Positions 4,365-55,711 of a stretch of 64,000 bases of DNA are shown piece by piece. The stretch covers positions 62,001-126,000 of the forward strand of contig DUMF01000027.1 in the NCBI GenBank assembly GCA_012840015.1. The letters run 5' to 3'. Origin of the DNA: Bacillota bacterium. GTDB taxonomy: Bacteria; Bacillota; Sulfobacillia; DUMF01. Positions within the stretch are counted from its first letter, which is position 1, and each line of letters begins with the position of its first letter. The notes under the pieces are model-generated. The model was given only the letters and a program-made list of their open reading frames with translations, ran no database searches and was not told the DNA's origin. The translations under genes and the position numbers were made by a program.

Positions 4365-5556
4365 TAATGTAATTGTCGCCGAGGCCGCCATGGAGCGTCT
4401 CCTGCATGGGCTGCCCGGCCGCCAATACGTGGTGCTTGAGCCGGCAGGGTAGAACCTGGCCAAGGGCACTTCCAAAAGCACAATCAGCCCCCGCTTCTCG
4501 TAGCCAGCCAAAAGGCCTTGGTGCAATTAATGTCCAGGTCGCTAAGGGTCTTACTGCACCTACGAACCAGTACCGTCACGAACCTGGACGCCAGAAGCCA
4601 ACCAAAGCTTCCAAGCCCAGTCCTATCCGGGGCATTTCGCTCGAGCCGTAGCCCTGGTCCGTAGTCTCGGTCTTTAGCTTCGGTTCGTATCCAAGTTTGT
4701 TCTTCGCCACACATTTAAACTCCAGGCTATCAATTCGCGCGGACCCTGTTGCGCTCGTACGGGCGCACTTGCTGCAGAGTCATAGCCCCAAAGGGGTAAC
4801 GCCTAGTATGACAGGCTTGATGAACACTGTCGGTTGCATGGCAAAAGCAGGAAATTAAGGCCTCACGTCGAATCCACAGAATCAGCGGAAGCAAGGAAAC
4901 CTGCCCTGTAGAATGGTCGCTTGGGGTAGGTAGAGCTAGTAGCGAAACCGGCCGCGGCTCATCGCTGCGGAGGTGGTGGCTCGTGCCTTACTTTAGGCGG
5001 CGCAGTTACTTGTTCGGCTTGCTCAGGGTGTATGACGACCGCGAGGGCAGTTTTTACGTGAGGCTGTTTGGAGGAAGGATGTACCAGGTGCGGGGCAACA
5101 GACCGTCTGCCAGCAACAAATGTAGCCGTTCCCGTACCGTGGACGCGGATGGAAATCCCGCATTCAAGATGAAAGCCCAGAAGTAATAGATCGGATGCAA
5201 GGTAACCTCGAATTACGGCATGGGCCAACGGTTCGCCCTGCCGACGCAGTTTGTTTTTTGCCCAGACTGTTTGTTCGATCTTCTACCCGATTTTCTGTCG
5301 GATCTATTTAGTCCGAACGGAGTAAGCCGGTGCGCTCACCAGTTTGTGGATCATGGCACTCAAATTCGTAAAACCTCAATGCGGTCATCCTTGGAAAGCC
5401 AACACCGGCCAAGGCTGATAATGCTCTCTGGCTCCCCCTCGGCCGTTTCGAAACTAATTAGCCTCCGAGCTCGGCCTTGCTAGGCTGCAAGGCTGCGACC
5501 TGCAAAGAGCATTATTTCAAGCCACCGCTGATCCGATTCTTTCATAGACCTGTAAG
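4365..5556. other. Gap of about 1.2 kb without a supported gene
   Basis: Only short open frames occur, on both strands, with no family resemblance and no good ribosome sites (for example plus 4983-5186 and minus 4484-4714). No riboswitch or tRNA was recognised. Together with the broken epimerase on its left, this looks like decayed DNA. Confidence 0.4.
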
Positions 5557-6201
5557 TTACTGGTCTGGTTCGTTCCCCGCCAGTTCCAGGACGGCTTCTA
5601 CCTCGGCCGTAACCTTGATTTCATCAGGGGGCACTACATTTCCCGGACCTGGAGATGGCATATACGAGCTTTCACAAACCATCGAGTACCTGCCACCATA
5701 GGAACGACTCTTATCAAAGACGTGAATAACCGGGCCCATTTTTACTCCCAGTCCATCAGCGATAGCCCTAGCCCTCTCGATTGCGTTCACGGCTGCCTTC
5801 TTCAGCGCTTCCTGTTCCAATGCTGCCTTATCTTCGTGCTTGAAATTGATGTAGTCAATTTCCTTAACTCCCAGTTTGACGGTCACTTGAATAATCTGTT
5901 TGATCAGGGAAAAGTCGCGAACCTTAACCTTTAAAGCGTTAGAAACCTCGTACCCCCGAAAGACGCGTGAGTCGTTCTTCCACTCGTAACTGGGAGACAG
6001 TGCATAAGACCTTGTCTCAATATCCTGCTTCGGCACCCCAAGAGATTGGAGTTCAGCCAACAGCTTCCCGGTCACAGCGTCTACCAGTTCTTGAGCTTTG
6101 TACGCGTCTGGCTGGACAGATGTGATTTTGAGCCCTACTTCCGCGATATCGGGCTTGGCGAAAGCTTCGCCGTAGCCGGATACAACTATCCTCTTAATCA
6201 T
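5557..6201 (-). CDS. SIMPL domain-containing protein (DUF541)
   Basis: A 214-residue protein of the SIMPL/DUF541 family. The N-terminus is typical (IVVSGYGEAFAKPDIAEVGL), followed by the central LGVPKQDIETRSYALSPSYEW and a C-terminal half rich in helix and strand. I chose ATG 6201, five bases after an AGGAGG. A GTG two codons upstream overlaps that site and is less likely. There is no signal peptide, whereas many family members are periplasmic, so a cytoplasmic location is inferred. Its biochemical role is not established; related proteins have been tied to stress or signalling complexes. It has no co-directional neighbour. Confidence 0.85.
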   Translation of the reverse strand: MIKRIVVSGYGEAFAKPDIAEVGLKITSVQPDAYKAQELVDAVTGKLLAELQSLGVPKQDIETRSYALSPSYEWKNDSRVFRGYEVSNALKVKVRDFSLIKQIIQVTVKLGVKEIDYINFKHEDKAALEQEALKKAAVNAIERARAIADGLGVKMGPVIHVFDKSRSYGGRYSMVCESSYMPSPGPGNVVPPDEIKVTAEVEAVLELAGNEPDQ

Positions 6202-6488
6202 AAGCACCTCCTAAGCGCTCGAAACATTCTGTACTTCTCAAGTCACTTTTTCTTTGTGAAGTTCGACGTTGACCATTCTCTCCCCTTTTCTCCAGCACTG
6301 ACCCTCGTCTCTTTTGCCCGAGAGGCCTGCCCAGCTCCAGTCTTCATATTTTCGAGTCCACTTTTTTGAAGCAGCAACGGCTCAGTACCAAGCCAATTCG
6401 TGATCAGGGCTACGCCTGAGGTGAGAATCCCCGATCAGGGCTCCAGTTGACCTAAACTGAACTGCGTGCTACCCTACACTCGTAAAGT

Positions 6489-6504
6489 AACCGTCGTTAC
6501 GGTT
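6489..6504. promoter_or_regulatory. Inverted repeat just upstream of the FetA-like gene, possible operator
   Basis: AACCGT and ACGGTT form a perfect 6-bp inverted repeat around a 4-base centre. It sits 15 bases before the TTG start of the ABC ATPase gene, where a repressor dimer could block transcription or translation. The binding protein is unknown. Confidence 0.35.
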
Positions 6505-6519
6505 TTGAGGTGAGAGTGT

Positions 6520-7209
6520 TTGCCTTTGTTCGCTTTCGAAAAGATAACGTATGCCGTTGGCGATAACGGTTCTCATAAGGTCTCGGTCTCGGGTTCGGTA
6601 GACAAAGGTGGCGTCTTGGCGATTACGGGACCGTCGGGGTCTGGGAAGACAACTCTTCTTCGCATTTTGGCCCGGCTACAGCAACCAATTGCTGGCAAAG
6701 CGTGGCTCGATGGAAAGAATTGGTCAGATTTCAGCCCCAGCGAATGGAGGATTAGAATCCACTACCTTGCTCAAAAGCCAGCTTTTCTGCCCGGCACTGT
6801 CCTTGATAACCTGAAGTGGCCATTTCAGCTGGCAGCAATCAAAAAACGGGAAGGTTTCAACCGGGAAAAAGCGGCGGATCTCGCTTCAAAAATGCTTTTG
6901 CCAGGGGACATCTTCGAACGCGACGCCCAGATCATATCAGGTGGTGAAGCGGTCCGAGTTTCGCTAATCAGGTCGCTCCTCATCTCTCCCACCGTCTTAA
7001 TGGCTGATGAACCAACTGCGGCTCTCGACGCAGACGCGAGAGAAGCAGTGATCGCCGTACTCAAAAACTGGCTGAGGGATACCGGGGGAGCTCTTCTCTT
7101 GGTATCTCACCTGGAGGACGTCGAGACCTTCCCATCCGCCGCTAAGGTGGTCATCGGGTACCAAGGGAAGCAGCTTATCAACCAGGCTCACCAGAGTCTG
7201 GATCTGTAA
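6520..7209 (+). CDS. fetA: ABC transporter ATP-binding protein, FetA/YbbL-like
   Basis: This is the ATPase subunit of a two-gene exporter of the FetAB (YbbLM) type, associated in Escherichia coli with iron export and oxidative-stress resistance. The 229 residues contain Walker A GPSGSGKTT, the Q-loop around LAQKP, the ABC signature ISGGEA, Walker B VLMADEPTAALD and the H-loop LLLVSHLED. The start is a TTG at 6520 behind a GAGGTGAG site. The permease gene follows after about 100 bases. The signature reads SGGE-A rather than the commoner SGGQ/E-Q. The metal substrate is inferred from the permease family. Confidence 0.85.
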   Translation: MPLFAFEKITYAVGDNGSHKVSVSGSVDKGGVLAITGPSGSGKTTLLRILARLQQPIAGKAWLDGKNWSDFSPSEWRIRIHYLAQKPAFLPGTVLDNLKWPFQLAAIKKREGFNREKAADLASKMLLPGDIFERDAQIISGGEAVRVSLIRSLLISPTVLMADEPTAALDADAREAVIAVLKNWLRDTGGALLLVSHLEDVETFPSAAKVVIGYQGKQLINQAHQSLDL

Positions 7210-7315
7210 TCGGGGCCTTTCTCAGTATATCAAGTGGAGTCCTGATACGCTAGCGCTGTACTGAATTATTAGCTGTACTGCTTATATGCTTGTATCAGAA
7301 GGAGAAGAACTTGAG

Positions 7316-8116
7316 ATGAACGGCGGAGCCATACCCATTTCGGACGCCAAACTTTTGCTGAGCATCATCTTGGTGTGCCTGGCGGGCCTGGTGTCCACCG
7401 CCCTGAAACTGGGGCTCACCAAGTCGCTGGCAATCGGAACAGTACGAACCTTTTTGCAGCTTGGCCTAATCGGCTACGTGCTGGGCTACGTATTCCGTGT
7501 AGACAATCCCCTCTTGATGATAGCGGTCCTTACCGTAATGACGGGGATAGCGGCCCGAACCGCGGCACACCGAAGGGAAATCCCGATCCCTGGAGTAGGG
7601 CGCCACGCTTTCTTAGCTCTTTTGATCAGCTCTTTCTTCGTAGGGCTCATCGTAATTGGAGTCATAATCTCTCCAACACCCTGGTACACATCACGCATAG
7701 CCATTCCCATCTTCGGGATGATCCTGGGAAATTCCATGAACGGCGTTGCCCTCGCCCTCGATAGACTGAATACCGAAGTCCGCAGCCATGCAGGTGAAAT
7801 CGAGACCCTTCTGTCTTTCGGCGCCACTCCTTGGGAAGCTATCAGGGACCACTTAAAGCAATCCGTGCGAGCCGGAATGATCCCAACTATCAATTCCATG
7901 ATGACCGTAGGCATTGTGAGCCTTCCAGGCATGATGACCGGACAGATTCTGAGCGGCGCAGACCCAATCCAAGCTGTTCGCTATCAGATCGTGGTTCAGC
8001 TTATGATTTCCTGCGCGGCCGCGGCGGGCTGTCTGATCGCTGCATTGTTGACCTACCGGGATGTTTTTACACCCGAGTCTGCGCTAAATCCTTCCTTTCG
8101 TAAGAGTATTGACTAA
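7316..8116 (+). CDS. fetB: ABC transporter permease, FetB/UPF0014 family
   Basis: The membrane subunit partner of the preceding ATPase. It is 266 residues long with about seven hydrophobic segments. Family-typical stretches include GTVRTFLQLGLIGYVL, IPIFGMILGNSMNG (near residue 130) and the C-terminal SLPGMMTGQILSGADP. I place the start at ATG 7316, with AAGGAG 11 bases upstream. An in-frame ATG ten codons earlier (7286) lacks such a site. Together with the ATPase it should form a full exporter. Export of iron or another metal is known for the family and not shown here. Confidence 0.88.
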   Translation: MNGGAIPISDAKLLLSIILVCLAGLVSTALKLGLTKSLAIGTVRTFLQLGLIGYVLGYVFRVDNPLLMIAVLTVMTGIAARTAAHRREIPIPGVGRHAFLALLISSFFVGLIVIGVIISPTPWYTSRIAIPIFGMILGNSMNGVALALDRLNTEVRSHAGEIETLLSFGATPWEAIRDHLKQSVRAGMIPTINSMMTVGIVSLPGMMTGQILSGADPIQAVRYQIVVQLMISCAAAAGCLIAALLTYRDVFTPESALNPSFRKSID

Positions 8117-8382
8117 ACGTGTTAGAAAGTAATTGACACCCGGTTATCACACACGCCTTCTCGTCCTCGGCAGGAGTCAGCAACTAAGCCCCAATGCCCG
8201 CTGTGTTGTGCCACTGGTATACAACTTTTCGGGATAAATTCTTCCTCATCGTCATACTTTCAATCTGGGCATTTAATATGAGGTAACAGCTTTGCTAGAA
8301 AGCGATTATAAACAAGCACGAGGGCGAAGCGACCATATGGCTGCCGGAAGAACGGATCGGGTGGTGACTACTTCGTAATGGA

Positions 8383-9270
8383 ATGAGGCGTTCGCAGGTG
8401 AAGCAGAAACCCTGGCAGGGAAAACACATGTGGATATGGATTTTGGATAAGATTGGCACACCTGAGAAGGTCTTCGAAGATAGTGTGCGCTTAGGTTTGT
8501 CCGGGGTATTGATAAAGGCCTGGGATGGCTACCTGGCAGGCAGGTTTTTGGAACAGCTGCACAGTATAGTCAAACCGGTCCACGACTTTGGTCTCATTGC
8601 AGGTGCCTGGGGGTACAGTTACGGCAACAACATTTCAGGCGAAGTCCAGGTCATGAAACAAGCTCTTGATGCGGGTGCAGACTGGCTGGTCATCGATGCC
8701 GAAGCGGAATACGAAAACCCGCAAGGTCCCGAAAAGGCCATCGCTCTGGGGGAAGCCTTGAAGCAAACGCTGGAACAAGATGTTCCATTGGGTTACACCA
8801 CCTTTGCCATTCCGAGCTATCACCCTCGTTTTCCATACAGAGAATTCTCTTCGTTTTGCTCGGTTTGCCTCCCTCAAATCTATTGGGAAATGATGGGTAT
8901 GCCTTTGGACCGAGCCTTCAACTTATCTATCACAGGTTTATCAGCCTATGGACTCCCCATCGCTCCCGTGCGCCAGTCTTTCGGCCCAGTCACCCCTGCC
9001 GACATTTCTGCCTTTGCTTCGGCCTCTAAGATTCGCAACCTAGAAGGCATTAGCTACTTCAGCTGGCAGGATGCATCGGCTCCTCAGCTGGAAGCCATCG
9101 CGTTAGTGCCTTACGGCCGCTTTCAAGAAGTGAGTCCCTGGGCGAGGTTGGGTTGGTATATGGCCACAAAAAGGGCGATTATGGACGGAACTGACCCAAA
9201 GGGAGCAGTGACAAGGGAAATGCTGGCCACAGTTCTGGAGCGACTTGGGCTCCTGCGGGCCAAAGCCTAG
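8383..9270 (+). CDS. TIM-barrel, glycoside-hydrolase-like protein of unknown substrate
   Basis: A 295-residue protein. The first 220 residues look like a TIM barrel of the kind found in glycoside-hydrolase or lysozyme-like proteins: strands such as GVLIKAWDG, GLIAGAWGY, DWLVIDAEAEYEN (acidic residues at a strand end), PLGYTTFAI and CLPQIYW. The last 40 residues (KRAIMDGTDPKGAVTREMLA) resemble the tail of phage or cell-wall hydrolases and S-layer-type repeats. There is no signal peptide. The start is uncertain: ATG 8383 has a weak site and GTG 8398 is an alternative. I cannot assign the substrate; cell-wall or polysaccharide cleavage is a guess. Confidence 0.6.
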   Translation: MRRSQVKQKPWQGKHMWIWILDKIGTPEKVFEDSVRLGLSGVLIKAWDGYLAGRFLEQLHSIVKPVHDFGLIAGAWGYSYGNNISGEVQVMKQALDAGADWLVIDAEAEYENPQGPEKAIALGEALKQTLEQDVPLGYTTFAIPSYHPRFPYREFSSFCSVCLPQIYWEMMGMPLDRAFNLSITGLSAYGLPIAPVRQSFGPVTPADISAFASASKIRNLEGISYFSWQDASAPQLEAIALVPYGRFQEVSPWARLGWYMATKRAIMDGTDPKGAVTREMLATVLERLGLLRAKA

Positions 9271-9406
9271 TCAGCCAGAAAGCTAGCGAGAAGATCCCGC
9301 AGTTCCTCCATAGCCCACATTACTGCGTCAGCATCCCTCTTGAGCGCCATGATCGCCACGGTGTCATAGCCATCCGGCTTTTATGTTCAAGCGTGTCCGC
9401 CTGAAC

Positions 9407-9437
9407 GAAAAGTAATGAAAAGTGAATGAAAAGTGAT
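9407..9437 (+). repeat. Three direct copies of GAAAAGTRAT
   Basis: Three near-identical 10-11 base units, GAAAAGTAAT, GAAAAGTGAAT and GAAAAGTGAT, run head to tail directly into the start of the thioredoxin-like pseudogene (ATG 9436). Slippage is the likely origin. Confidence 0.6.
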
Positions 9438-9876
9438 GGGACCTCTTTTCATCCTGATACCGATAATAGCATCAGTCTCCTATCTTGCATTCACCGAAGG
9501 TCAAGCGTCAAAACGAGAGAAAAAAGTAGTGCTTGGCGTAGAACCCTGGGGCTTCGTCGCGCAGGTTGCTAAGGGAAAACCAGGTACGCCACAATTCTAC
9601 ACCCCCTCCTGTCCGTACTGTATAAATCCATACTGTATAAAACTGTATAAAGATTGAACCGGGACTGGGTAAAGTCAATCACACTTATGGAGACAAGGTT
9701 TTTGTGGTAAAGATGAACGTCGAAAGACACATTGGCGAATCTTAAACACCAGATTCCCGGCATGCCAGCTGTAGCCTCTTTTCGATGCCTAATGGAAGCC
9801 TCAGCTTATGACCGCAGGATACCGGGATGCCTCAGACATAGTCGAGACCATGAAAAGCCTCAAACTGGTCGAATAA
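9436..9876 (+). pseudogene. Decayed thioredoxin-like protein with signal anchor, multiple frameshifts
   Basis: The first frame gives a membrane anchor (FILIPIIASVSYLAF), then GKPGTPQFYTPSCPYC, where the final CPYC is the redox motif. A short duplication containing ACTGTATAAA (9618-9650) then breaks the frame. Another frame continues as CIKIEPGLGKVN and GDKVFVVKMNVERH. The cis-proline region (IPGMPAVASF) and the last helix (GYRDASDIVETMKSLKLVE, ending in TAA at 9874) lie in further frames. The order of pieces fits one thioredoxin-fold gene of about 145 residues. A shorter fragment of the same family occurs at 25379-25507. Confidence 0.75.
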
Positions 9877-46494: not shown

Positions 46495-47266
46495 TATCGC
46501 TCCCGTTCACCCTTAATCTCGGCAGCTCGAATGCACCATGTGCAGGCCCTATCCACTGCGGATTCACGGTAAACGCCATACTGAAACCTGCTTCCCTTAC
46601 CGCTCTCACCACACGGGAATTATACCGGCCTGAAGGATAGCAAAAACTCTGCACTTTAATGCCCAACCTGCGCTCGATTTCCGCTTTTGACCCTCTTATT
46701 TCAGCGTGCAGCCTTTCGTCCTCCAGCTTGGTTAGGTCGGGATGCGTAGCCGTGTGGCATCCTATTTCCCACCCGCTGGCCTCCATCTCCTTGAGCTGTT
46801 CCCAGGTCACATGACCCCGCGTGCCCACGGTGCTGGAACAGACGAAAGCTACCCCGATGAACCCATGCTTCTTCATCACCGGGAAAGCCCTGGAGTACAG
46901 GTCCGCGTAGCCGTCGTCAAAAGTAATGATAATGCTCCTCCGAGGCAAATTCTTCTTTTTTTTCAGCGCTTCAGCGTATTGGGTAGCAGTGATGGAGCGG
47001 TAGCCGTTTCGCGCCAAGTATTCCATCTGCCAAGCAAACTTCTTCTCGTCGACATACAGGTCGTTAGGCCCCTCCCCAATCACGTGGTACATTAACACCC
47101 CTACCGGGTAATCCACTCTTGACATGAATTCCGGACGAGGTCGTACAATCGGGCCCTCTACGTGGGCAGAATAGGCTGCACCCGGCCATGCCAGGGCAAG
47201 TACAACACCCACCAGGAACAGCCAAAAAGCCTGCAAGCTAGTGATCCTTGCCTTGTGCCCAACCAT
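46424..47266 (-). CDS. Polysaccharide deacetylase (NodB domain)
   Basis: A secreted or membrane-anchored de-N-acetylase acting on peptidoglycan or another polysaccharide. A hydrophobic N-terminal segment (LQAFWLFLVGVVLALAWPG) is followed by the NodB domain: VLMYHVIGEGPND, IIITFDDGYAD (catalytic Asp-Asp), EIGCHTATHPDLTKL (metal His) and FCYPSGRYNSRVVRAV. I chose ATG 47266, at codon 23 of the open frame; it overlaps the Lon-like gene by 28 bases. The end overlaps the DUF3048 gene. Confidence 0.85.
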   Translation of the reverse strand: MVGHKARITSLQAFWLFLVGVVLALAWPGAAYSAHVEGPIVRPRPEFMSRVDYPVGVLMYHVIGEGPNDLYVDEKKFAWQMEYLARNGYRSITATQYAEALKKKKNLPRRSIIITFDDGYADLYSRAFPVMKKHGFIGVAFVCSSTVGTRGHVTWEQLKEMEASGWEIGCHTATHPDLTKLEDERLHAEIRGSKAEIERRLGIKVQSFCYPSGRYNSRVVRAVREAGFSMAFTVNPQWIGPAHGAFELPRLRVNGSDSGDRFVKMVSSSPPPKRERLCWW

Positions 47267-49595
47267 GTTGTTTGACCCGTTCTCCCATGTCTTTAAGAGC
47301 CCTGAGTGCTCGTGCATGAACTTCGTCGGCACTTATACCAGTAAGAAGCTCGAGAGCCTGATCCACGGTATCTACTGCCCATACGTTGAAAGCTCCTTCC
47401 TTCACCGCCTGAACCACCTCGTCCTTCAACATGAGGTTTGAAACATTTGAACTCGGGATCACCACGCCCTGGTTGCCGTCCAGTCCCTTGAGCTTGCAAA
47501 CCTGGTAGAAACCTTCCACTTTGTAAGTAACTCCGCCTACGGGCTGAATCTCCCCGAACTGATTGACGGAGCCTGTAACTGCAACGCTCTGTTTGAGTGG
47601 GACGCCAGCGATCGCAGAAATCAAAGCGTATAATTCAGCGCTCGAGGCGCTGTCTCCTTCAATCTCCTCGTAAAGCTGCTCGAAGCAAAGGCTGGCGGCA
47701 AGTCCGAGAGGGGCCGCCTCCGCATATCGTCCTCCCAGGTAGCCAGAGAGGATCATTACCCCCTTGGAATGAATCCTTCCACTCATTTCTGTCTCGCGCT
47801 CGATGTTTACCACGCCACTCCTACCTGGAAAAACCCGGGCCGTTATTTTCGAGGGCTTCCCGAAGACGTAGTCCCCCAAATTTAAGACGGCCAAACCGTT
47901 TACCTGCCCCACTTTCTCACCACTCACGTCTATAAGGATTTGCCCTCGCGCGACCATATCCAGCAAACGTTTTTCAACCAGGTTTGATCGATAAACTTTC
48001 TCTTCTAGCGCCTTCTTTACTTCCGCAATAGTCACGAGGGACTTCCCTTCCAGGTCGGCCCAAGCTGAGGCTTCCCTGATCACTTCCACAATCTCGTTGA
48101 AGCGTGTAGAAAGCCTCTCTTGATCCTCGACCAAGCGCGAGGAGTATTCAACTATGCCTGCTAGGGCGTCACGCGTGAACGGTTTGAGGCTCTCCCTCTC
48201 GCTGATGGATCGTACAAAGGATGCATACTTCCTTATGTTCTCCGGGGTACGCTCCATGGAAACATCGAACTCTGCCTTGATCTTGAAGAGTTTCTGGAAA
48301 TCTTCATCGTATGTGTATAGCAATTGGTATACATGAGGGCTCCCGATCAAGATCACTTTAACGTCTACTGGAATGGGCTCCGGATGCAGGGTAGCGATGG
48401 CTTCCGTTCGGAGTTGCTCTGCCATGCTTTCAATCCGCACTTCACCGTTATTGAGCACCCTCTTCAGTCCGTCCCAGGCAAATGGGTTCTTCAAAACATC
48501 TCCCGCCTGGATTATCAGGTAGCCACCATTGGCGCGATGGATTGCGCCCGGTTTGATCATAGTGAAATCGGTTGCCAAAGCACCCATGACGCTCCGGTAC
48601 TCGAGCCGACCGAACAAGTTAAAATAGGTCGGGTTGGTCTCAAATACCACCGGCGCACCCTGCGTGTTCAAATTGTTCACCAGCACATTGACCTTATACC
48701 TGGTAAGAGAAATCTTCTTGCGATCCCCATCTTGATCGTTCTCGTCCTCCAGGAACAAGCTCAGGTTTTCGACAATGTCCTGCTCCAGCCCATTCAAGTA
48801 ATCGACGATTTCAGCATTGTCCGCGTACTTCTTAGCGAGTTCTTTAACCAAAGCCCCAGCCAGGGCATGACCCAGCCCCTGATCCAGCTGCTTCAGCCTG
48901 CTTTTCAGCTCTTTTTCAAGTTCCCTCGAACGTCTCAAGAAATCAGCCAGCCTTTGCTGCACTTCTCTCGCATTGGCCGTGAAGGCTTCCTTCGTTCTGG
49001 CGTCCAGTTTTTCGAATTCCTCTGGAGGAACTGGTTTTCCGCCGAGCACGGGTAGGGTGGCGAAACCGGTGGGAGTGCGGGTAATGGCCACATCTTTGCT
49101 CGCGGCGAACTGCTGCAGTTCCTCGAGTATACTCTGAGATGCCTGCTGGTAAGCCTGGACTAAGGCATCACGACGCCTCTCATAATCTTCGCTTTCGAAA
49201 CGCTTGGGGACTTCCCTTCGGAGTTCTTCCACCAGTTCGTCCATATCCGCCGCGAATTCGACCGCTTTCCCTGGCGGTAACGGTATCGACACGGGCCTAT
49301 CTGGATCTTTGAAGTTATATACATACACCCAGTCTCCTGGGGTCGGTTGAAGTGCGGCCACCCGGGTTACAGCCTTCCTCGCATATGTAGTCCTGCCGCT
49401 ACCGGTTATGCCGGAAATGAATATGTTGTATCCCTTGCCTTTGCAGGAAAGGCCAAACTCCATCGCTCTGACTGCCCGCTCTTGGCCGATTATCTCGGCA
49501 AGGGGTTCCACTCCGTCAGTCGTATCGCATGGAAAGAGATTGGGGTCGCATACCGCTTTCAGTTTTTCTGGAGCAACGCGCCGCCATCCGCTCAA
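47238..49595 (-). CDS. Lon-like AAA+ ATP-dependent protease
   Basis: A 785-residue AAA+ protease of the Lon/LonB-like family without the classical Lon N-domain. Walker A reads GITGSGRTT near residue 64, with Arg in place of the usual Lys, and Walker B is near GGYLIIQAGD. The S16 peptidase domain has the serine in EGDSASSAELYALISAIAG and the lysine in PVGGVTYKVEGFYQV. The gene starts one base after the Rad50 C-terminal-half stop, so it shares that operon. It probably degrades specific proteins. A link with DNA repair is inferred only from position. Confidence 0.88.
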   Translation of the reverse strand: MSGWRRVAPEKLKAVCDPNLFPCDTTDGVEPLAEIIGQERAVRAMEFGLSCKGKGYNIFISGITGSGRTTYARKAVTRVAALQPTPGDWVYVYNFKDPDRPVSIPLPPGKAVEFAADMDELVEELRREVPKRFESEDYERRRDALVQAYQQASQSILEELQQFAASKDVAITRTPTGFATLPVLGGKPVPPEEFEKLDARTKEAFTANAREVQQRLADFLRRSRELEKELKSRLKQLDQGLGHALAGALVKELAKKYADNAEIVDYLNGLEQDIVENLSLFLEDENDQDGDRKKISLTRYKVNVLVNNLNTQGAPVVFETNPTYFNLFGRLEYRSVMGALATDFTMIKPGAIHRANGGYLIIQAGDVLKNPFAWDGLKRVLNNGEVRIESMAEQLRTEAIATLHPEPIPVDVKVILIGSPHVYQLLYTYDEDFQKLFKIKAEFDVSMERTPENIRKYASFVRSISERESLKPFTRDALAGIVEYSSRLVEDQERLSTRFNEIVEVIREASAWADLEGKSLVTIAEVKKALEEKVYRSNLVEKRLLDMVARGQILIDVSGEKVGQVNGLAVLNLGDYVFGKPSKITARVFPGRSGVVNIERETEMSGRIHSKGVMILSGYLGGRYAEAAPLGLAASLCFEQLYEEIEGDSASSAELYALISAIAGVPLKQSVAVTGSVNQFGEIQPVGGVTYKVEGFYQVCKLKGLDGNQGVVIPSSNVSNLMLKDEVVQAVKEGAFNVWAVDTVDQALELLTGISADEVHARALRALKDMGERVKQHGWAQGKDH

Positions 49596-50252
49596 TCAAA
49601 TCACCCCTCCGTCTCTCTTCTGCCTAACATGGCTCTTCCCGTCTTTCAGCTCCACCAGGAAGCTGGCGTCCCCTGCTTCAGCCAACTGCGTGTTATGCGT
49701 CACCATTATCACCTGTCTGTCGAAACTCCTGCTCACACCCTTTAGAAACTCCACTACGCTAGGAGAGTACTCGTCGCTCACGTGTTTCGCGGGTTCGTCC
49801 AGTATCACCGGCCCTTGAATGGCAGGCCGCGATGCTTCGAGTAGGGCAAGTCTCAAAGCAAGGCATACCACGTCTACGACACCACCGCCCCTTGCATCTT
49901 GAGGACGGTTCTCGATGCGCTCGCTTCCTTCGTAACTGGACGAAACTAAGTATTCAGCCTCAACTCTTCCGTGCGATTCCTCCATCTTTATATGGAACTC
50001 CATGTCCGGCCCGAATACCATTTGCAGAGCGTTAGTGACCATACCTTCCACCTGCTGCCTCGCCTGCTCCCGAGCGTAGGCAGACGCTTCCAAAAGTAGT
50101 ACCTTCATTTTATCCAACAGCTCCCTGCGCTCCTGCAACTCCGTCAGCTTCTTTTCAAGTTCGCTTTTCCTGGCCTCTAACTGCTGAAAAACACCTTTTC
50201 GCATGTTGTGCCGGGTTTTGAGGCGCTCCAGTGCAGTCTCCAGTTCGTCCAA
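49596..50252 (-). CDS. Rad50/SbcC-like ATPase, C-terminal half (split Rad50)
   Basis: A 218-residue protein equal to the C-terminal lobe of a Rad50/SMC ATPase: a coiled-coil start (residues 1-60), then a signature region with ARGGGVVDVVCLALRLALLEA (about 120-140), Walker B GPVILDEPAKHV (about 144-156) and D-loop/switch VIMVTHNTQLAE. It has no Walker A. Walker A sits in the separate gene at 50512-51705. The two proteins should assemble into one ATPase head with the small coiled-coil protein between them. Confidence 0.85.
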   Translation of the reverse strand: MDELETALERLKTRHNMRKGVFQQLEARKSELEKKLTELQERRELLDKMKVLLLEASAYAREQARQQVEGMVTNALQMVFGPDMEFHIKMEESHGRVEAEYLVSSSYEGSERIENRPQDARGGGVVDVVCLALRLALLEASRPAIQGPVILDEPAKHVSDEYSPSVVEFLKGVSRSFDRQVIMVTHNTQLAEAGDASFLVELKDGKSHVRQKRDGGVI

Positions 50253-50258
50253 GCTAGA

Positions 50259-50510
50259 TCATGCTCCTTTTTTGACCAGGTCCCAAGGGATCAGTTTTTC
50301 CGCCTCGGTCGTGAGTTCTTCGACTTGCTTTTGAAGTCTCGCAATCTCTTCATCGATTTTCTCAGGGTCAACACCGAGATCTTTGATCCGTTGAATGATC
50401 TCTTCGCGTCTTTCCTCCAGGTTCTTGAGCCTCTCTTCCGCCCGGATGCGCTGGCGTTTTGCAGCCTCCAATGCGTCATTGAGTTGCTTTACGCGCGTTT
50501 CGATATCCAT
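50259..50510 (-). CDS. Small coiled-coil protein within the split rad50 set
   Basis: A protein of 83 residues (ATG 50510 after GGGGAGTGAG) that is almost entirely coiled coil: VKQLNDALEAAKRQRIRAEE, RLKNLEERREEIIQRIKDLG and ARLQKQVEELTTEAEKL. It ends with LIPWDLVKKGA, and the next gene starts 6 bases after its stop. It could be the other part of the Rad50 hinge or an adaptor between the two ATPase halves. Confidence 0.75.
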   Translation of the reverse strand: MDIETRVKQLNDALEAAKRQRIRAEERLKNLEERREEIIQRIKDLGVDPEKIDEEIARLQKQVEELTTEAEKLIPWDLVKKGA

Positions 50511-50511
50511 A

Positions 50512-51705
50512 TTACTCACTCCCCTCGAGGCGCAACTCATTTATTATGTGCTCTATGGTAGTGGAGGTAATATCGCTCATGCAAACAGGGCATTTCCCCG
50601 CAGCCCTTAACGCCTCCGCGTACTCATTTACCAACCTCTTGGCTTCCTGATTGGCCTTTCTCTTTTCGGCCTCAACATAGGTCCTCTCCGATTCATTTTT
50701 CTGTAGCTCAGCCCTAAGCCTCTTCAGCTCGGACAACCGTTTGGGAGCATCGCCTATTCGGTTGGCCAATTCCTGCGCGCTTTCCAGAGTACTAAACCGC
50801 TTCATATAATCGTGACCCGCTTCGATGCTTTTCTCTATGGCCCGTAGTTCATCTACGAGCGCCTTCAGCGCCTTCAGACCTTTCAGCCGGGAGAGCACAG
50901 ATCCGATTTCCAATAAGATCGAGGAGCAGTCCTTCACTCGCGCCGTAGCAGCTATAACGGCCGCCGACTGGCTCATTTGCTCCGTGACTTCCGCAAGCTC
51001 CCTTTTGCTTTGGATTATCGTATTTACGTTTGCTCTTAAATCCTTGAGCCGTTTCAACAGATCGTTCAACCGCTCTATCCGCGCTTCTTCTTCGGGCAAG
51101 TCCCTGTAATTCTCCATTTCAAGGCGGATCTTTTCGAGATCGCTCTCGATTTGGGCCGAAGCGTCCTCCACTGAGCTCTGTTCCCGAGCAGCCAACTTAA
51201 TCGCTAGATCCAGCACGTGGACTCCTGAGATGCGGCCGATTGCCTTTGCCCTTACGCTTCCAGGTTGGGTGAGCAAGAAAGGTGCTTCCAGTTGACTGGA
51301 TAGACTTAATGCGACTTCAAGCTGGTCGTCAAGGGACACTTTGCGGATCCCGTGAGCTTTCAGTATTTCTACCGGGATTTCCGTGCCAAACCCCTCGAAA
51401 TGGCGCTTTTCACCCGTCGGTAAGTAAAGCTCGTAAACGTTACGGGTGCCCGAACGCTCTCGAACTATCATGGTGCCGTCATCCAGTTCCGCCTCGACTC
51501 GGCATGGGCCGGTGGAACCAACCCTGACGAAGTCTGACCCTCGTGGCTCATTGAAGAATAGCCAGCGAATCGCCCTGACTATCGCGGATTTACCTTGATC
51601 AGAAGCACCCACGATGACGTTAACCCCGGGCGAAAAATCCAATACGCTGTCCTCATGGGACTGAAAGTTTTGGAGTCGAAGTCTAACCAGTTTGCTCAGG
51701 GTCAA
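50512..51705 (-). CDS. Rad50/SbcC-like ATPase, N-terminal half with zinc-hook motif (split Rad50)
   Basis: A 397-residue protein starting with the Rad50 opening VRLRLQNFQSHEDSVLDFSPG and Walker A GASDQGKS (33-40), followed by a Q-loop region and a long coiled coil (residues about 160-360). It ends in KCPVCMSDI near 372, a CxxC that matches the Rad50 zinc hook. The Walker B lobe is missing and occurs in the gene two places downstream. The apparent TTG start at 51705 sits very close to GAGGGGA; a CTG two codons in (51699) would give better spacing. Confidence 0.85.
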   Translation of the reverse strand: MTLSKLVRLRLQNFQSHEDSVLDFSPGVNVIVGASDQGKSAIVRAIRWLFFNEPRGSDFVRVGSTGPCRVEAELDDGTMIVRERSGTRNVYELYLPTGEKRHFEGFGTEIPVEILKAHGIRKVSLDDQLEVALSLSSQLEAPFLLTQPGSVRAKAIGRISGVHVLDLAIKLAAREQSSVEDASAQIESDLEKIRLEMENYRDLPEEEARIERLNDLLKRLKDLRANVNTIIQSKRELAEVTEQMSQSAAVIAATARVKDCSSILLEIGSVLSRLKGLKALKALVDELRAIEKSIEAGHDYMKRFSTLESAQELANRIGDAPKRLSELKRLRAELQKNESERTYVEAEKRKANQEAKRLVNEYAEALRAAGKCPVCMSDITSTTIEHIINELRLEGSE

Positions 51706-52678
51706 TCCCCTCTTTCATGCTCTCTTCAGCTTTGGCCAACAGCTCTAATGCTTTTCGTGCCACCTCAGATGATACGCCATGTAGTTCGGCTATCTGCTGT
51801 ACGATACCTTGTAAGTCCACGGTTTCGAAGGAGCTTGTCTGTCTTACCAGCTGTAGGAAACCCGCGAGCTTTTCTGCCCTGTATTGTTCCGCCTCGAGCT
51901 TAGACCTGTCCAAGACCTGCTCGCCCGGTCTAGCACTCTTCAACTGTATAGTCCTGAGGCGTATCTCTCCATCGATCTCTATGAGCAACACTGAAGGCAT
52001 CCTGCTCATTTCTGCAGTGTGATTCTCCAGGCGCACCAGCGCTCCCGGGTTGGAAAACCACTTGCCTTCGATGCACAGGGTAGGGAATCCCAGATGGTTA
52101 TGCCCCGCCAGAGTGACGTCCGCCTCGGTGGTAAGGATCTTCTCGATCAGAGTATAGGCCGCCCCAGCAAACAGCGGGCGTTGTACGAGCATGCCATGTA
52201 CCACGTGGATCGCTACATCGCAGTCTTTTTTCTTGACGCAGTAGTCCAGCTGAGGTTCTCTACGATCCAGCTCGTAGTGAAACGGGCAGGCTGAAAGGTG
52301 GAGCTTCAAACCGTCCTTGGCGATTTCGTACACCTGCCCCGCCTGCATCAATGTGAACAAGCCGAGGTCCGCCGCCAGGCCAACGATGGATCTATTCAGG
52401 GTCTCGGCGTTGTAGCCGAACATGTCGTGGTTCCCGGGAACTAGATAAAGTGGCGTTTCCAGCTCCCTCAGTATCTTCAAAAACTCCCTCGCCGTACCCA
52501 AAGCGGGGTTTGGTAAGTCAAACAAGTCGCCACCGTGAATGGCAAGGTCCACGTTTCGTTCATGTACGATGTGGATCACTTCTCTCAGTTTAGCCGCCAC
52601 GGTCTCAGGGAAATCGTCCAAGCGGTTCCTCGGCGTATTACCCCTGATGTGCGTATCAGTGAAGAATAGTATTCTCAT
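51683..52678 (-). CDS. Mre11/SbcD-like metallophosphoesterase nuclease
   Basis: A DNA nuclease of the calcineurin-like family, partner of Rad50. Metal motifs in order: FTDTHIRGNTP, IHGGDLFDLP, VPGNHDMFGYN, HVVHGMLVQ and LAGHNHLGFP. This is complete for Mre11. After about residue 250 the C-terminal part is helical and unlike SbcD. I chose ATG 52678, one base after the herA stop; the open frame is 6 codons longer. The end overlaps rad50-N by 23 bases. Confidence 0.88.
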   Translation of the reverse strand: MRILFFTDTHIRGNTPRNRLDDFPETVAAKLREVIHIVHERNVDLAIHGGDLFDLPNPALGTAREFLKILRELETPLYLVPGNHDMFGYNAETLNRSIVGLAADLGLFTLMQAGQVYEIAKDGLKLHLSACPFHYELDRREPQLDYCVKKKDCDVAIHVVHGMLVQRPLFAGAAYTLIEKILTTEADVTLAGHNHLGFPTLCIEGKWFSNPGALVRLENHTAEMSRMPSVLLIEIDGEIRLRTIQLKSARPGEQVLDRSKLEAEQYRAEKLAGFLQLVRQTSSFETVDLQGIVQQIAELHGVSSEVARKALELLAKAEESMKEGIDPEQTG

Positions 52679-52679
52679 C

Positions 52680-54548
52680 CTACCGGTTGCCTCCATCGCG
52701 TAAGACGTATTTATATCCGAACGGGTGACGGACCCTTTCGATTCTCCCGGCCTCGCTCAGGCTCAGCAACAGGGACCGAAGCTCCTCGACTCCGATACTC
52801 CTTCCAAGCTCTTGGGATACCTGTTTCAAATAGTAAGTGAGGTTCGCATCGTCAACTGGCAGTAGCTTGCTGATGCACCTCCAGGCTTGCTCGAGCTCCA
52901 TCGCAGAGCGCTCCTCTAGCTCGCTGAACGGATTTTCGGAGTGTGGGCTTTCTGTCCTCGCGGATCTAATTCTAACGGGAACGGTCCTGCCCACAACGGC
53001 TGAGCTGACGTAGGCGCACCCTGACGGCAGGTAGGGCAGGTTCGCCGCCTCCTCCCGAGTGATATCCGTCTCCTCTTTTATCACCTCGATGTCGGTGGCT
53101 CTCACCGTCCTGAATATGATTTTAGTATTCAGCTGGGCTGTGACCGTATCATCCAGTAACGCCGGCCGCTGAGTAGCCAAAACGAGAAAAACGCCATATT
53201 TTCTTCCTTCCTGGGCAATCTCGCGGAACACCCATCTGGCGGGCGCTTCAACCATCTTCGGTGCAAAGCCGTGACACTCGTCGGTAACGATGAAAAACGG
53301 CGGAAAAGGTGGGACCGATTTGTCATTGTCTCTTAGCGCATCCCTGTATGCTCTTCTCTTCTGGTACAATTTACGGCACACGAACGCGGCAAGTACCTGG
53401 AGAAACCAGGTGCTTCCTCTAATTACGGCTACGCGCCTGCTGAGCAGCGTTTGCTCTACTCCAGTAATATCGCAGCTGAAGAGGCCTTCCCTGAAAAGCC
53501 TGTTGAGCCTCCAGGCGATCCCTTTGAGAGGTGCGGAGCCGCCCACTTTTCCACCATACTGGTCGAGTAGTTCCACCAGACGCCGAGCCCTGTCGTAATC
53601 TTCGGAGTAAGGGTCAGCCGCTTTCTTCCGTACTTCTCTTTCATTATCGAGCGCGAATATTAAGTCTTCCAGCCTAGAAGAGAAAGACAGGTAGCTGTCC
53701 TTATTCTTGTGCAGTGTCTTGATCGCGTTCTCCATCGCTTCTGTCAGCTCTCTGGAAGCCCTAAGCAGGCCGGACAGGTCCTCGGAGCTTAATTCTTCGA
53801 AGTTCACGCCGACGTCACGCCCTGCTTCGAAGCAGCGGTACCGGTCACGGTAGTCGCGCTTGAACTGCTCTGGGATATCGGCTGCAGCTTTGTCGAAACT
53901 CATCTCGTAGTGGGGATCAAACACTACGGCCGGTATGCGTCTGTCCATGATTTCTTCTAGGATAACCCTCAAACCGTACGATTTCCCGGAACCTGAGCCA
54001 CCGAAAATGCCTACGTGGGGATACTGGTCCATCTTCCTATACGGGAAGAGAAAAGGCACGCCGTTCTGTTGAATGAACCCTTTCCCTTTCTCCCAAAGAG
54101 GCGCTACGCCGCTCAAATCCTGAGGAAGTCCGAACTTCGCTATCTCCTCTGTGCCCCTTATCACTCCGAGGATGAATCCCTCCTGCGCTTTGCATGGCAT
54201 GAGCAACTCGGCCACTTCCTGGAACGCCGGCACCCGCACCGGCGCACCGATCTTCGGAGGGACCTGAGTCTCTGTCAGGAGACGGATCGTCGCTAGGTGC
54301 ACCTCCTGATCCTCGAGGCGGTATCCTAATCGTCGTAGATTTTCCAGCACTTCAGGATCCACGAGGGAGGTATGCTCCGAGACGAGAGGAATGTACCTAT
54401 TCAAGCTGGAAGTCTCAACCACCTGCCCCGTGAGAGGACCAGCGGAGTCATCTGCGATGACCAGCACCTCGTTCAGCCGGAATTTCCGCCGTCTCGATGC
54501 GGCGTAAACCTCCAGATGCGTGGCTCTTCCTACCACCTGCATGCTCAT
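52680..54548 (-). CDS. herA: HerA-type hexameric DNA translocase ATPase
   Basis: A 622-residue FtsK/HerA-class ATPase. An N-terminal HAS-barrel-like region precedes Walker A FGGSGSGKSYGL (183-193). Further motifs are VVFDPHYEMSF, Walker B with PFFIVTDECHGFAP, and VLATQRPALLDDTV (sensor-like). HerA moves DNA and works with the nuclease NurA on broken ends. A tight cluster with nurA, mre11 and rad50 matches the archaeal end-resection operon. The stop is shared with the start region of mre11. Confidence 0.87.
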   Translation of the reverse strand: MSMQVVGRATHLEVYAASRRRKFRLNEVLVIADDSAGPLTGQVVETSSLNRYIPLVSEHTSLVDPEVLENLRRLGYRLEDQEVHLATIRLLTETQVPPKIGAPVRVPAFQEVAELLMPCKAQEGFILGVIRGTEEIAKFGLPQDLSGVAPLWEKGKGFIQQNGVPFLFPYRKMDQYPHVGIFGGSGSGKSYGLRVILEEIMDRRIPAVVFDPHYEMSFDKAAADIPEQFKRDYRDRYRCFEAGRDVGVNFEELSSEDLSGLLRASRELTEAMENAIKTLHKNKDSYLSFSSRLEDLIFALDNEREVRKKAADPYSEDYDRARRLVELLDQYGGKVGGSAPLKGIAWRLNRLFREGLFSCDITGVEQTLLSRRVAVIRGSTWFLQVLAAFVCRKLYQKRRAYRDALRDNDKSVPPFPPFFIVTDECHGFAPKMVEAPARWVFREIAQEGRKYGVFLVLATQRPALLDDTVTAQLNTKIIFRTVRATDIEVIKEETDITREEAANLPYLPSGCAYVSSAVVGRTVPVRIRSARTESPHSENPFSELEERSAMELEQAWRCISKLLPVDDANLTYYLKQVSQELGRSIGVEELRSLLLSLSEAGRIERVRHPFGYKYVLRDGGNR

Positions 54549-54556
54549 CCCTCCGA

Positions 54557-55624
54557 CTAAAACGCTTCTCGTCTTTTCCTCTGGGGCATAAGTAACTTTT
54601 CTACGACGTCATCGCCCAGTGAATGCCTCGCCAAGTCTTCTACATCGCTTTCTGTAAGGCGTGCCTCGGCATCGACGATGTCCAGCCAAAGGGGAAAACC
54701 TCTCGAGGCTCGGGGGGTAGTCCCCAAGATAATCCGCAGCGCCGTTTTTACGTTACGCAAGCTGGAGTCCACCTGACTCCTCAAAAAGTCGACGGCCACT
54801 GGCTGGGGATGATCGGAGAGTCTCGCGAAAACGGTGTAGTAGTCTCCTTTAAACCGCAGATCGGGGCAAACCAGAATGCATTCTCCCGGGTCCAGAAGTC
54901 CGAAAAGAAGGTCTCTATCATTACGGGGCCATTCCAAATCCAGGGCAGAGCGCACCAGACCCGCCACATAAAAGGTACCTATTTCTTCTATGACTCCCGC
55001 CAGAACGGTACCCGTCTCCTCAGCAGTATCCGTAAGGAGGCACCAATCATCTCTGCTCATCGTCTCGTATCGTAGAAAACCGCCGTCCATCAACGCGAGT
55101 GCCTTACGCCCTGCCTGCCGGTGCCTCAATAACTCCCGGCAGGCCTGACACTCCAGTGCGGCCAACCGGCACTTCGCAAGCATATCCTGCGCCGCTTCGA
55201 ATGGCAGGCTCTTCTCTGCTGCCATCTGTTCTATGGAAGCCCGGCTTTCGGTATCCAGCGAGTGGACCAGATCGAACTTCGTAACCCTTGCCCCACAGGC
55301 AGAAAGCGCTACCGCCGCCAGCGCGTCCAAGCGGCATGATTCTCCTCCGAATCCCGCGGCGGAACCATCGACGCCAATAAGTTCGATGTCAGCTTCTTGA
55401 GGAAAATCTTCGATGGGACATATCGGGCCCACCTTCTCCATTATCAGTTGCCTGAGTAAAGCCCTGTCAGGAATTGCGGAGGTTTCGGTCCTCAGAGCCG
55501 CCGACATTTGCGCCAGCCTGGGGCCAAGTCCTTCGACCAGCCTGGCTCCATGCAATACTACCACCCTCTTGCCTATTTTGTTCTCCAAATGCCTTTCGCG
55601 ATCCTTCCCAAAAACCCTTGCCAT
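54557..55624 (-). CDS. nurA: NurA domain nuclease
   Basis: A 5'-3' exonuclease or endonuclease of the NurA family, partner of HerA, about 355 residues. Metal residues are suggested by ELIGVDGSAAGF near residue 90 and by LALMDGGFLRYET. Later segments (LRFKGDYYTVFA and PLWLDIVDAEARLTESDV) fit the C-terminal part. I chose ATG 55624 with AAGGAAA upstream; TTG 55672 is possible. It is the first gene of the operon and diverges from the secreted-protein gene at 55712. Confidence 0.85.
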   Translation of the reverse strand: MARVFGKDRERHLENKIGKRVVVLHGARLVEGLGPRLAQMSAALRTETSAIPDRALLRQLIMEKVGPICPIEDFPQEADIELIGVDGSAAGFGGESCRLDALAAVALSACGARVTKFDLVHSLDTESRASIEQMAAEKSLPFEAAQDMLAKCRLAALECQACRELLRHRQAGRKALALMDGGFLRYETMSRDDWCLLTDTAEETGTVLAGVIEEIGTFYVAGLVRSALDLEWPRNDRDLLFGLLDPGECILVCPDLRFKGDYYTVFARLSDHPQPVAVDFLRSQVDSSLRNVKTALRIILGTTPRASRGFPLWLDIVDAEARLTESDVEDLARHSLGDDVVEKLLMPQRKRREAF

Positions 55625-55711
55625 AGTTTCCTTAGCGTGCCATAAAGTCACCTTTGGCCATTCTGAGTTCAACTGTTATTATGTTAACAACACTTACTGT
55701 CAGAGGTGACT

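Follow-up and report, generated by a model that had tools for sequence, protein, structure and literature searches.

We observed that the Rad50 homologue in the window (the whole stretch of DNA analysed, 64,000 nucleotides) is encoded by three separate genes beside Mre11, here termed Rad50N, M and Rad50C, and very probably these specify a natural three-chain Rad50-like ATPase that works with Mre11, and here with HerA-NurA as well, in DNA-end processing. The split is an old and conserved design and not a broken gene. The evidence points to a protein that works like Rad50, but head and arm were not found on one polypeptide, the only scored loci without three genes being those of a single arm-less fusion family, and two canonical motifs are altered; the system is therefore classed as a Rad50-like variant family and not as canonical Rad50/SbcC. 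On the minus strand the genes follow the order NurA, HerA, Mre11, Rad50N, M and Rad50C, and then a LonB-like protease gene. The features concerned are as follows.

54557-55672, minus strand: NurA-like nuclease, 371 aa, first gene of the cluster (NurA, 1e-8)
52680-54548, minus strand: HerA-like DNA translocase, 622 aa (DUF87, 1.2e-16)
51683-52696, minus strand: Mre11/SbcD-like nuclease, 337 aa (Metallophos 6.3e-13, Mre11_Halo 1.4e-10)
50512-51705, minus strand: Rad50N gene, 397 aa, with ABC N-lobe, arm and zinc-hook CxxC (AAA_23)
51586-51609, minus strand: Walker A GASDQGKS, Rad50N residues 33-40, read from the sequence; G33, G38 and K39 invariant in 26 homologues
50671-51081, minus strand: arm region, Rad50N residues 209-238, 254-287 and 306-345, three matches to a repeat of about 47 residues
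50581-50592, minus strand: zinc-hook CPVC, Rad50N residues 372-375; C, P and C invariant in 26/26
50259-50510, minus strand: middle gene M, ATG start, 83 aa coiled coil, homologue of phrog_18563
49596-50252, minus strand: Rad50C gene, TTG start, 218 aa, head-proximal helix and ABC C-lobe, homologue of phrog_15167
49878-49892, minus strand: altered signature RGGGV in Rad50C (canonical LSGGE), Gly at the Ser position in 81/83
49776-49802, minus strand: Walker B and D-loop LDEPAKHVS in Rad50C (canonical LDEPTPYLD), with near-invariant Lys156, from the C-lobe alignment

The three genes are tightly packed, with M starting 1 base past the Rad50N stop and Rad50C starting 6 bases past the M stop, while the Mre11 and Rad50N genes overlap by 23 bases, and purine stretches resembling Shine-Dalgarno (SD) sites lie upstream of the M and Rad50C starts (GAGGGGAG, AGGAG). 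The sequence-only reading had described a Rad50 in three pieces beside Mre11, having their own ribosome sites, intact frames and junctions of 1-6 bases, and the gene calls, the motifs and the same split in relatives agree with that description. Rad50N is recognised by the Pfam family AAA_23 (3.9e-17), its match to the Pfam zinc-hook family (Rad50) is weak and under the cut-off (3.6e-4), and Rad50C is only weakly recognised by Pfam; the motifs of Mre11 (DxH, GGDLFD, GNHD, HGM and GHxH) are readable in the sequence. Since the frames are intact and the motifs are conserved in relatives, the split lies far beyond chance.

For the distribution analysis, 398 genomes drawn across the phylum were searched with Rad50C, and 65 of them, belonging to about 25 taxonomic families, were found to carry the family. 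HMMs for N, M and C together with gene calling were then applied to many carriers, class relatives, plasmids and phages, giving 74 scored locus records, with some genomes entering twice through records that overlap. Each of the 74, whether bacterial, plasmid or phage, has N, M and C as separate genes, and the split recurred on phage contigs, which answers positively the conservation check that had been proposed from the sequence. Frame offsets in these records amounted to 27/26/21 from N to M and 37/24/13 from M to C, so that all three frames are used at random, AGGAGG-type sites were present at many starts, and the junctions ranged from 44-base overlaps to an 845-base gap, with 4-base overlaps being frequent. 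A scan of viral contigs with the Rad50C alignment disclosed 62 phage loci, of which 53 harbor N, M and C all as separate ORFs; in six, N and C were detected but no M passed the HMM threshold, and three lack a detectable N; among these 62 contigs neither a fusion of M nor an ORF joining N and C was found. The distance from N to M extends to 1.8-4.4 kb in seven phages, with the Mre11 gene intervening in six of the seven, and whenever M and C are near each other, M is the gene that immediately precedes C.

Some phage loci display peculiarities of their own. Of the six loci in which no M was scored, the three inspected (L171, L173 and L180) have a diverged ORF of 87-89 codons between N and C which is not scored by the M HMM, and in Bacillus phage vB_BboS-125 a gene with an AP2 domain, possibly a homing endonuclease, lies between N and M (L045:4119-4691). 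Microbacterium phage Magritte, which has an actinobacterial host, carries Rad50C at its genome start (L046:284-934), with neither M nor N turning up in the 4.9 kb examined there. M alone gave no tblastn match against phage records, although the HMMs and PHROGs detect it.

The suspicion that an assembly error, a frameshift or a recent pseudogene is involved, and that the true genome or its relatives would have rad50 intact, arises from the window itself, where M and Rad50C share one reading frame with a single TGA between them, so that one substitution could fuse both. However, the three genes recur in genomes, plasmids and phages that are independent of one another and number in the dozens, with random junction frames, SDs of their own, invariant motifs and intervening genes, including Mre11 between N and M, and the gene structure of the relatives excludes the single TGA as the explanation of the split. 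A single intact rad50 was looked for in relatives and did not appear, the sole deviation being an arm-less Mre11-N-C fusion. Programmed frameshifting or stop read-through, which would join the pieces into one Rad50 chain, could be read into the tight junctions and the frequent 4-base overlaps, but junction frames, stops and distances vary freely, and in phages the pieces are parted by hundreds to thousands of bases and by intervening genes. With separate genes in relatives, random frames and intervening genes, we consider both explanations excluded for practical purposes: the first is refuted by the same split in relatives, and the chance of the second is negligible to the same degree. The earlier judgement that this is not a simple frameshift thus holds, on the strength of the random junction frames and the intervening genes.

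With respect to the head, Rad50N matches the N-lobes and Rad50C the C-lobes of archaeal Rad50 and SMC, and the tail of N matches the P. furiosus zinc hook 1l8d. Structures were predicted by AF2 on a phage homologue (L120), as N-M and N-M-C read-throughs with stops read as residues; in the N-M-C model, M and C are set apart by about 200 residues of translated intervening region, a linker without meaning. A full N-M-C alignment with N-only rows was dropped, as MAFFT put N arms on M and C, and the alignments therefore used N-lobe rows or N-M only. Mean pLDDT was 67.9 for N-M and 62.1 for N-M-C, with about 80-93 in the lobes, the head-proximal N helix and the C helix, about 70-93 in the M helices, and often below 50 in the mid-arm, and we make no claim on arm helix topology from these models. 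In Foldseek, the C model was similar to P. furiosus Rad50 1f2u_B (TMt 0.67) and the N model to 1f2u_C and 1f2u_A (TMt 0.58 and 0.53), so that the modelled N and C lobes match separate chains, and a head made from two chains, as had been foreseen, appears to be right. The P. furiosus Rad50 crystal structures hold the N and C segments as separate chains, and a two-chain head is therefore known to assemble. The NCBIfam cut-offs for Rad50/SbcC were not reached, the best score of N being 71 bits against a cut-off of 700, which is expected of a fragment and hence weak evidence.

The ATP-site motifs were counted in 83 C-lobes aligned with P. furiosus Rad50. Walker B D152 and E153 and the H-switch His were present in 83/83, and the signature reads RGGG[VI] and not LSGGE: the Ser position is occupied by Gly in 81 C-lobes, by Ala in two and by Ser in none, and the Glu is replaced by Val/Ile in 79. 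A one-residue shift of the alignment would put mostly Arg, and never Ser, at the Ser position. The D-loop Asp is replaced by Ser in 82/83, and a new Lys, Lys156 in the window, stands two residues past DEP in 81/83. In ABC proteins it is in trans that the signature Ser and the D-loop Asp reach across the ATP sandwich, which implies that both in-trans contacts are replaced and the in-cis ones kept. Judging from these sequences, the loss of the two residues could mean weak or altered ATP hydrolysis, and we infer that the near-invariant DEPxK Lys compensates for it.

Turning to the hook, the CPxC motif is invariant in 26/26 homologues. Two phages (L129 and L171) have the variants CRFC and CATC, in which the Pro is gone and both Cys are retained. 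Rad50N has just 22 further residues past CPVC, so the split is not at the hook, as had been supposed at first, given that both cysteines belong to N and the break falls about 20 residues past them. The accompanying idea of a hinge of unusual composition gives way likewise, because M is most likely the hook-side descending strand instead.

The arm of Rad50N is built in steps. From the N start to CPxC, 80 non-redundant proteins cluster near 363, 413, 458 and 509 residues, with a single outlier of 584, and in 68 proteins the distance from a PFLL-type anchor to CPxC is 222-230, 267-282, 318-324 or 367-373 residues. The periodicity of the latter reaches a Rayleigh R of 0.954 at 48 aa against a 99.9% maximum of 0.405 under a uniform null that ignores shared ancestry. 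In profile autocorrelation, a lag of 47 aa ranks first or second in each of the four arm-length classes, with lag 94 second in three classes and 98 first in the shortest, and the N-M model shows pLDDT dips near residues 258, 305 and 351, a spacing of about 47 residues. With an HMM of the repeat, for which only the 458 class served as input, five units in a row were detected in L116, and three of lower strength in the window's Rad50N (7.1, 3.5 and 15.7 bits). Parsimony on the C tree, which is weakly supported in parts, counts 24 changes of arm-length class among 79 tips, so that the arm lengths appear to shift repeatedly and to land on the same values.

The window belongs to the shortest class, with about 200 residues going up against about 165-180 coming down (hook tail, M and C), and such near-matched strands make a twice-cut classical arm plausible there. 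The N arms of the longer classes exceed the pairing capacity of M and C, and a simple nicked coiled coil suits the window better; in these classes the extra N units would have to pair with each other or with a second N chain. The lengths of M (77-103 aa) and C (about 215 aa) are independent of arm length (Spearman 0.05 and -0.05).

Mre11 adjoins or lies near the three-gene Rad50 in nearly all examined loci, and it is fused to N in at least six of them. In L121, L122, L124, L159, L047 and L048 the fusion of Mre11 extends to Rad50N alone; C is a gene of its own there, and so is M where it was detected. In one taxonomic family (f91), three genomes encode a single chain of about 690 aa composed of Mre11, N-lobe and C-lobe, without arm, hook and M:

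L080, minus strand; L081, plus strand; L082, minus strand: arm-less Mre11-Rad50 chain of family f91

In the C tree this group is nested, with low support, among the three-gene forms. The natural Mre11-N-C fusion is evidence for a single head that N and C form with Mre11, and the disappearance of M together with the arm and the hook favours its being part of the arm.

M consists of two predicted helices, broken at LGVDPE, and it is weakly conserved, with a mean column identity of 37%. Such weak conservation, the very small size of M, the fact that it is never fused to N or C and that its length does not track arm length would also suit an accessory or regulatory subunit, Nbs1- or kleisin-like, attached to a head made of N and C and forming no part of the arm. 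We consider this unlikely, because M is missing where arm and hook are missing, is a predicted two-helix coiled coil beside C, and without it the hook-near descending strand would be lacking. The site where M binds is presumed accordingly to be the hook-side arm, with the models qualifying this through their low arm confidence.

Two chromosomal settings recur, namely [NurA-]HerA-Mre11-N-M-C in the window and 12 others, and RecA[-RecX]-Mre11-N-M-C[-Rny] in 13 loci, and the usual order in phages is N-M-C-Mre11 (42/62). SbcC was matched at 1e-40 in 125 of the 398 genomes and the three-gene family in 65, while only one genome had both against 20.4 expected, a count not corrected for phylogeny. With this near-exclusion, the three-gene system appears to substitute for SbcCD. 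Carriage by phages and plasmids, together with weak PADLOC matches of N to LmuB, GajA and PtuA and of HerA to mad8/HerA models, might suggest an ATPase of defence or signalling assembled with Rad50 parts, as opposed to a repair Mre11-Rad50, but the matches to Rad50 and to the phage exonuclease family are far stronger: the best PADLOC match of N is LmuB at 7.6e-16 (residues 6-82), compared with 5.1e-71 (4-333) for phrog_16465. The stable chromosomal context with RecA...Rny or HerA-Mre11 and the near-exclusion with SbcC also contradict it, making this reading highly improbable.

Under the preferred reading of a three-chain Rad50-like ATPase, Rad50N would give the lobe bearing Walker A, the ascending arm and the cysteine pair of the hook, Rad50C the second ABC lobe and a leading helix that pairs with the head-proximal N arm, and M the hook-proximal descending strand, paired with the last part of the N arm, so that the descending strand would be cut twice. 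N and C would form one ABC head per assembly; two assemblies would bind ATP between their heads and be joined through the zinc hook. Together with Mre11 they would process DNA ends, and resection would then pass to HerA-NurA, as it does in archaea. That N, M and C assemble with Mre11 is what we infer from the loci, and the stoichiometry, activity and nuclease function given here are those presumed for such an assembly. More tentatively, and as a possibility that we would neither favour nor dismiss, this could be a distinct class of Mre11-Rad50 machine, in which the descending strand always exists as two pieces, M and C, the N arm is composed of 47-residue helical repeats that vary in number and lack a partner strand, and the ATP sandwich does without signature Ser and D-loop Asp, probably using the DEPxK Lys. 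If so, the arm breaks could allow opening or part exchange that is impossible for a one-chain Rad50.

Compared with known systems, archaeal Rad50 (P. furiosus, M. jannaschii) shares the two-lobe ABC head, Walker A/B, H-switch and CxxC hook as well as the neighbours Mre11 and HerA-NurA, but it is one polypeptide where three are found here, and the present family differs from it in the replaced signature Ser and D-loop Asp, the new near-invariant Lys and the 47-aa repeat arm carried by N only. Bacterial SbcC/SbcD (TIGR00618) has the same presumed role and an Mre11/SbcD partner, whereas SbcC is one chain of about 1040 aa and nearly mutually exclusive with the three-gene family. Fusions of Mre11 to the N-terminus of Rad50 have been described in plasmids and phages (Yoshida et al. 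2011, PMC3175470), and the Mre11-N fusions found here have the same direction. The Mimivirus Mre11-Rad50 fusion contains a Rad50 with both Walker A and Walker B (PMC3175470), unlike the Mre11-N chains here, which end past the hook and leave C as a separate gene. The word 'split' is absent from that paper (Yoshida et al. 2011, PMC3175470), and no report of a split, bipartite or tripartite Rad50/SbcC was found in the open-access literature, where absence is no proof. SMC arm lengths, averaged over two similar strands, prefer discrete values in steps of about 100 aa (Burmann et al. 2017, PMC5344682); here the N strand alone changes, by 47-aa repeats. The phage homologues of the three pieces are PHROG 16465 (N, 'exonuclease'), 18563 (M, function unassigned in PHROGs) and 15167 (C, 'ATPase'), which are filed as separate families and not linked by the returned annotations.

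The Rad50 arm is thought to relay signals between hook and head, and here a chain cut twice on its return path has nevertheless persisted in many families and phages. An arm with quantised lengths makes the role of arm length in SMC/Rad50 proteins experimentally approachable, and the substitutions in the signature and the D-loop are relevant to the question of which contacts in trans an ABC head truly requires. A joint function is also proposed for three widespread 'hypothetical/AAA ATPase' families, PHROGs 16465, 18563 and 15167 included. Three features go further than the plain split, namely the altered ATP motifs, an arm quantised in repeats and the near-exclusion with SbcC; none of them had been part of the sequence-only reading, which also lacked the conservation throughout the family and the reading frame shared by M and Rad50C.

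As for the surroundings in the window, the LonB-like AAA protease gene (47238-49595) lies immediately 3' of Rad50C on the same strand, and it was not seen adjoining the three-gene Rad50 in the other loci examined. Within the window's 2.04-Mb genome, a second copy of the three-gene Rad50 was not found and SbcC gave no match at 1e-40. The only other Rad50-like match in that genome is a YhaO/YhaN-like nuclease-ATPase pair (L002; G000:C5, about 5541-9518).
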